DNA of 64,000 bases from Pseudomonadales bacterium (lineage in GTDB: Bacteria > Pseudomonadota > Gammaproteobacteria > Pseudomonadales > Azotimanducaceae): NCBI GenBank assembly GCA_007131295.1, contig SLQW01000009.1, positions 1-64,000 of the forward strand. Reading direction: 5' to 3'. Both the position numbers and the translations under genes were made by a program. Within the stretch, counting starts at the first letter, position 1, and each line of letters starts with the position of its first letter. Positions 7,103 through 24,849 of this stretch are shown here, one piece after another. Under the pieces are notes generated by a model that saw nothing but the letters and a program-made list of their open reading frames with translations, did not search any database and was not told the origin of the DNA.

Positions 7103-8203
7103 ATGCTGTTGCGATCCCTGCAGATATCGAAATCAGAGTTCGAAGCGGGTACCGGCTGGCAGTTGAAGCCGGAGGGCGCCTGCAAGGGCGACGTGTGTAT
7201 TCCGCTGCCGGAGTTACCTGGCGATACCTTGGACGTCGCGGCTGTGGCCGAGACCATGGGACTGCCGCTCGCGTCCGCGCCGGAGCACGGACTCTGGGCT
7301 CTCGGGCCGGAGGCGATCGGCGGCCGCGCGCTGACCACCGCCGAGGCTCCCGACTTGCGTCTCCCCGACCTCGACGGTAACGACTTCGCGCTGTCGAGCC
7401 TGCGCGGCAAGAAGGTCCTGCTCTACGCCTGGGCCCCCTACTGAGGCTGTTCCGGCGACCTGTCCGTGTGGCAGGCACTGAGGAACGAACTCGCGCCCAA
7501 GGGCTTCGAACTCGTCACGGTGGGCCTCGATACGCTCGGCGCCGAAGGCTGCCGGCCGTACATCGAGGCAGCGCAACCCGAACATCCGGCGTTGATCGAT
7601 CAGTACCACAAGCTCGCCGATGCCTTCGGGTTCATCAACATTCCGAGCAGCGTCTGGATCGACGAAGACGGCATCATCGTTCGTCCCGCCGAAGTGGCGC
7701 CGGCACCGCCGGGCGCCCGCTCTGGACCGCCGCCGGAGCTGCCGCCGGAAACGCCGGAACGCCTGCGCTCGATGATGCAGGAAGCGGTGAAGATTCCGGA
7801 CGACTCGAAGGCCTACCACGAGGCGCTGAAGGATTGGGTAGAGCGGGGTCACGACAGCCCCTATGCATTGGCTTCAGAGGAAGTGATCGCTCGCTCTCGT
7901 CCGCGGGACACGGACCGCTCTCTCGGCCACGCCCACTTCGAGCTGGCCAGCGCCTTGGAGCTGGCAGGGCATCACGACGCCGCCATCGAGCACTTCAGAG
8001 AGGCGCACCGCCTGGTACCTGAGAGCTGGACTTTCCGGCGTCAGGCCTGGTCTCTGGAACCTGTGGAGGCGGCCGGGCCGTTCGCTCGCTTCTGGCAGGG
8101 GCCGCGCCCGGACGATCCTGAGTCCTGGCCCTACGATGGCGGTTGGCTGGAAGACGTGAAGCGGGTCGGCGCTGAGAACTACAACGAGCGCTGGAAGCCC
8201 TGA
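7103..8203 (+). CDS. candidate selenoprotein: thioredoxin/AhpC-TSA-fold protein with in-frame UGA (Sec114) and C-terminal TPR-like segment
   Basis: The frame is open from ATG 7103 (preceded by CTGGAG) to the stop at 8201-8203, except for one TGA at 7442-7444. Read as selenocysteine, it gives a 366-residue protein with Sec at 114 in the context AWAPY-U-GCSGDL, where thioredoxin-fold relatives carry the reactive Cys of a WxxWC-type motif. A resolving Cys116 follows. Residues 1-75 form an N-terminal module with a GACKGDVC motif; about 85-235 resemble a TlpA/AhpC redoxin domain (LPDLDGNDFALSSLRGKKVLLYAW before the TGA, WQALRNELAPKGFELVTVGL after it); about 270-310 resemble a TPR unit. No frameshift or other lesion is visible and codon usage matches on both sides. 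A SECIS-like hairpin follows the TGA. The alternative is a point-nonsense pseudogene or two separate ORFs. Confidence 0.78.
7445..7486 (+). promoter_or_regulatory. bacterial SECIS-like hairpin directly 3' of the in-frame UGA
   Basis: Two nested stems can be drawn by eye: a lower stem GUUCC (7449-7453) with GGAAC (7482-7486) and an upper stem CCUGUC (7459-7464) with GGCAGG (7470-7475, one G-U pair), closing a 5-nt apical loop CGUGU at 7465-7469. The loop starts 20 nt after the UGA and has G as its second base followed by U. This fits the known bacterial SECIS pattern: a hairpin immediately downstream, the loop roughly 16-37 nt from the UGA, and a G among the first loop bases. Not computed with folding software. 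Confidence 0.65.
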
Positions 8204-24667: not shown

Positions 24668-24849
24668 CTCGCTCCCCGGGAGTGCCGCTGTCGATATGGT
24701 CCTTGAACCCGAAAGTCCAAGGTGGGAGTTCAGGCGACCCCTCAGGCTTTCCGACGCGCGGACATGCACACCGGGGTCTGCACTTCACTCCCTGGTACAA
24801 CATAAGGCTCGAGGACGTGCACCGACTGGCGAACATCCCAGGGAACGAG
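24668..24849 (-). ncRNA. ssrS: 6S RNA
   Basis: The minus strand between zapA and 5-FCL reads as a 182-nt 6S RNA. The ends form a 14-bp terminal stem (24849-24836 with 24668-24681, two G-U pairs). The conserved 5' block CTGGGATGTTCGCCAG, close to the E. coli CTGAGATGTTCGCAAG, is present, followed by a CCTCGAGCC segment like the E. coli CCCTGAGCC. The 3' half has CTTGGACTTTCGGGTTCAAGG, matching the CTTGAACCAAGGGTTCAAGG closing arm, and a GCGGCACTCCCGGGG end. Length and synteny match E. coli (about 184 nt). 6S RNA mimics an open promoter and sequesters sigma-70 RNA polymerase in stationary phase. Confidence 0.93.

Follow-up and report, generated by a model that had tools for sequence, protein, structure and literature searches.

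The gene at positions 7103–8203 of the forward (+) strand encodes, with a probability of about 0.95, a genuine selenoprotein of the recognised WAxxUGC_long family (NF041054), in which the UGA codon at 7442–7444 is predicted from sequence analysis to be read as selenocysteine (Sec114). It lies in the window, the whole stretch of 64,000 nucleotides analysed here. When TGA is translated as Sec, the frame encodes 366 residues and is open except for this single internal codon; the terminal stop of the gene (8201–8203) is TGA too. The codon falls at the redox site, in the motif AWAPY-U-GCSGDL, with WAPYUGC occupying residues 110–116. An earlier note on this DNA had described one TGA splitting an otherwise continuous, lesion-free frame, and the translation bears out both its coordinates and its description. 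The note had further proposed that the codon encodes Sec at a redox motif, and had pointed to the genome's Sec genes, the homologue column and the downstream sequence as places to look. The proposal is supported in all of them: selA, selB, tRNA-Sec and selD are present, the column holds TGA or Cys, and a conserved SECIS-like hairpin lies 3′ of the UGA.

We scanned one genome per species, from 84,980 species, for homologues of the protein. The query was stored with Cys in place of Sec, so the scan was not biased towards TGA. It gave 26 loci, of which 25 span the site; each of them has TGA at this codon and is free of any other internal stop. These 25 homologues show 54–86% identity and come from Pseudomonadota, Acidobacteriota, Actinomycetota and Chloroflexota. 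Among 98 related genomes, 26 matches exceed the NF041054 cut-off, 23 of them with one TGA and three without a stop. The stop-free matches are more distant homologues, Cys forms whose motif WASWCGC places Cys where the others have TGA. Sampling 299 genomes from the whole phylum yielded a single additional relative (in genome G231), so the family is uncommon beyond the lineage to which the window belongs. The existence of Cys forms, together with the single substitution that separates TGA from a Cys codon, might suggest that the TGA is a lesion and the gene a Cys-type redoxin that is either a pseudogene or wrongly sequenced. However, the TGA occupies the same codon in independent assemblies from four phyla whose frames are otherwise intact, and the adjoining hairpin is frozen. 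The homologue column refutes both a pseudogene and a sequencing error, and we give the lesion practically no credence.

The predicted SECIS-like hairpin spans 7459–7475 (+), with arms at 7459–7464 and 7470–7475 and the loop CGUGU at 7465–7469 (window sequence C-CTGTC / CGTGT / GGCAG-G). The stem has 6 bp, the five-base loop contains a G, and the distance from the UGA to the loop is 20 nt. We assessed the pairing in 42 distinct genes; because these were chosen by the motif with its stop, they are a test of the hairpin only, not of the TGA. In these genes 250 of 252 base-pair cells are paired, and the two unpaired cells belong to Reyranella, where an alternative bulged stem exists. Drawing synonymous codons from each gene gave 217.8 ± 4.7 paired cells, with a maximum of 234 in 2000 draws, under a null that is not strict and overstates independence, the 42 genes being related. 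No other offset between −240 and +199 nt exceeds 198 paired cells, which makes the hairpin the best offset in the gene. Stem and loop show frozen codons (Pro CCC in 35/35, Val GTG in 33/33 and Gln CAG in 38/39), whereas most others vary freely. One homologue (L062) has a compensatory change, with TTG in place of Leu CTG and CAA in place of Gln CAG, and another (L070) retains pairing with TTG opposite CGA. Codon freezing and compensatory change are stronger points for the hairpin than the synonymous null. RNAalifold, applied to 57 nt, recovered this stem and a second, weak helix. None of four Cys homologues has the full stem, with 4–5 of the 6 pairs present. Bacterial SECIS elements have little sequence in common, and the lack of a SECIS match in the window at Rfam gathering cut-offs is therefore not counted against the finding. 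By its pairing, offset and frozen codons, we take the hairpin to be a SECIS-like element.

The genome encodes the complete selenocysteine machinery on a single contig (C138): selA (508 bits), selB (427 bits), tRNA-Sec (62.5 bits) and selD (225 bits). The selA, selB and tRNA-Sec genes are consecutive on one strand, with selD nearby on the opposite strand, and ARAGORN assigns the tRNA-Sec the anticodon tca. Across the 98 genomes, TGA-bearing UGC genes are found in 35 selA-containing genomes and in two without selA, versus 26 and 35 of the remaining genomes (Fisher p = 9e-8, a statistic that ignores the relatedness of the genomes). The two TGA-bearing drafts in which selA was not found, G045 and G052, are 93% and 73% complete, and the absence is most simply explained by missing draft sequence. 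The selD domain forms the C-terminal portion of a protein of 752 residues (L082:5214-7472, +) adjoining the selA, selB and tRNA-Sec genes; the N-terminal half of that protein resembles a pyridine-nucleotide-disulfide/NADH dehydrogenase-like oxidoreductase.

A continuous frame alone would leave the inserted residue unnamed, and the TGA might be read as another amino acid through codon reassignment or near-cognate readthrough. Against this, the genome has the complete machinery, including a tRNA-Sec with the matching tca anticodon, and a SECIS-like hairpin is present. TGA is still a stop here, because this gene and many homologues end at TGA. Moreover, the stop-free homologues have Cys at this position, rather than Trp or Gly. 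Taken with the homologue column, the machinery and the hairpin lead us to reject other recoding as very improbable.

The earlier note had left open whether the family had been described. It has: the gene belongs to a selenoprotein family that is already recognised and is not new. Among NCBIfam models the protein matches NF041054 best (WAxxUGC_long, "ResA-like WAxxUGC motif-containing protein"), with 489.8 bits against a cut-off of 300. This equivalog model already has selenocysteine written into its name. The match is full length (profile positions 1–353 of 354) and includes the WAxxUGC motif, and nothing material separates the protein from this family, of which it is an ordinary member. In the literature, 46 "Prx-like (UGC-containing)" selenoproteins appeared in a 2008 Global Ocean Sampling paper (PMC2398784), and a Prx-like/TlpA-like UGC entry is kept in reviews of 2022 and 2026 (PMC9312934, PMC13188914), with MBL6689828.1 and MDE0950781.1 as representatives. 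This published group shares with our protein a UGC motif in an AhpC-TSA (pfam00578)/TlpA-like (cd02966) domain. It likely corresponds to the long three-part architecture seen here, a match made by description and not by sequence. The term "WAxxUGC" is absent from the selenoprotein papers searched, and we found no biochemical study of the family there.

The three parts comprise an N-terminal motif GACKGDVC (7178–7201, +) with Cys27 and Cys32 in a CxxxxC arrangement, a thioredoxin-fold domain of the AhpC-TSA/Redoxin (ResA/TlpA-like) type at residues 80–194 (7340–7684, +), and a TPR-like repeat region at residues 277–313 (7931–8041, +; Pfam TPR_2 2.9e-5, TPR_14 6.9e-5). The note had recorded both the N-terminal module and the TPR-like tail, and these stand; its view of the architecture as unusual does not, since the arrangement is normal for NF041054. 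Pfam recognises residues 80–194 as one continuous domain across the TGA (AhpC-TSA 2.5e-12, Redoxin 2.3e-11), with a weak GSHPx match also present. The AlphaFold model is of moderate quality (pLDDT 74, pTM 0.58): most of the thioredoxin domain is well modelled, the arrangement of the domains is not. In the PDB, ResA and TlpA are the closest solved relatives of this domain in both sequence and fold; they align over ~115 residues at 18–28% identity. These thiol-disulfide oxidoreductases have CxxC. In our protein the motif is U-G-C, a CxxxxC module is added at the N-terminus and a TPR-like tail follows, and no export signal is evident. It falls outside the ResA/TlpA/DsbE subfamilies, scoring 49.8 bits against 170 for ResA and 37.8 against 230 for TlpA, and lacks CxxC. 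Judged by eye there is no evident signal peptide, so the product is probably cytoplasmic.

These features suggest how the protein may be made and may work. The hairpin just 3′ of the UGA would recruit SelB and Sec-tRNA-Sec, leading to insertion of Sec114 into a thioredoxin-fold oxidoreductase. Judging from fold and conservation, Sec114 replaces the nucleophilic Cys that opens the ResA/TlpA CxxC, and from there it could attack a disulfide or a peroxide. Cys116, the nearest partner in a U-x-C pair, would then form a selenenylsulfide and so resolve the adduct. A role in electron relay is plausible for the Cys27-x4-Cys32 pair, because both residues are invariant in all 20 aligned Sec and Cys homologues. 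More speculatively, the TPR-like tail might bind a partner or substrate. We somewhat favour chemistry resembling that of disulfide reductases. Mainly peroxide-reducing chemistry of the Prx/GPx type, rather than thiol-disulfide exchange, agrees with the AhpC-TSA, Redoxin and weak GSHPx matches and with the name Prx-like given to the UGC group in the papers cited above. This alternative is unlikely, though it deserves some weight: ResA and TlpA are the best neighbours in both sequence and fold, and Sec takes the place of the first Cys in CxxC.

Of the three genomes in which we saw Cys forms, two have no selA: G089, which carries two WASWCGC Cys copies, and G087, which has a weaker Cys form. The third, G009, has selA and holds a TGA form and a Cys form together (L080, G009:C130:7032-8051, and L056, G009:C387:12873-13964), the Cys form being the more distant. 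A tree of 53 proteins requires three Sec/Cys changes, a result that one long branch (L081) leaves partly unsure. With midpoint rooting, the long-form Cys copies of G089 lie just outside the Sec clade.

The window's own genome contains a second UGC selenoprotein gene (L077:5015-6148, −; G000:C12:29098-30006), encoding 378 aa with the motif WSSW-TGA-GC. Like the window protein, this paralogue and its WSSW/WASW-UGC relatives (L071–L076) have a TGA-coded UGC motif and a CxxxxC module. However, L077 shares 29% identity with the window protein and scores 240 bits against NF041054, under the cut-off of 300; it passes no other NCBIfam model. TGA-bearing relatives of L077 were found in many related genomes, and together they look like an unnamed sister subfamily. 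We tentatively suggest that both UGC proteins of this genome are members of a larger superfamily, whose multi-domain Sec/Cys oxidoreductases are cytoplasmic and carry a CxxxxC relay module of their own. The WSSW/WASW-UGC proteins (~380 aa) would form a part of it lacking its own NCBIfam model, and Sec and Cys would have been exchanged more than once.

In our reading, a stop-split thioredoxin-like gene in a proteobacterial draft genome is confirmed as a real selenoprotein. The known kinds of selenoprotein are unchanged by the finding, which adds evidence to a named family that is biochemically uncharacterised as far as the papers searched show: a SECIS-like element that is clear and shows frozen codons, and Cys forms in relatives without selA. 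Its value lies mainly in a clean confirmation and in pointing to the sister subfamily that has no name yet.

Clustering of flanking ORFs at 28 loci found no neighbour common to distant taxa, and the two clusters with the widest spread consist of overlapping ORFs at the selenoprotein gene itself. A plasmid search returned partial matches only, including a C-terminal fragment in Rhodococcus plasmids. The copy on Rhodococcus erythropolis plasmid pRhX5 (L085:2501-2773), annotated as a hypothetical protein, matches only the C-terminal module (residues 234–324, 48% identity) and is probably a gene remnant. Elsewhere in the window, a 6S RNA gene lies at 24669–24847 on the reverse (−) strand (Rfam RF00013, 102 bits).
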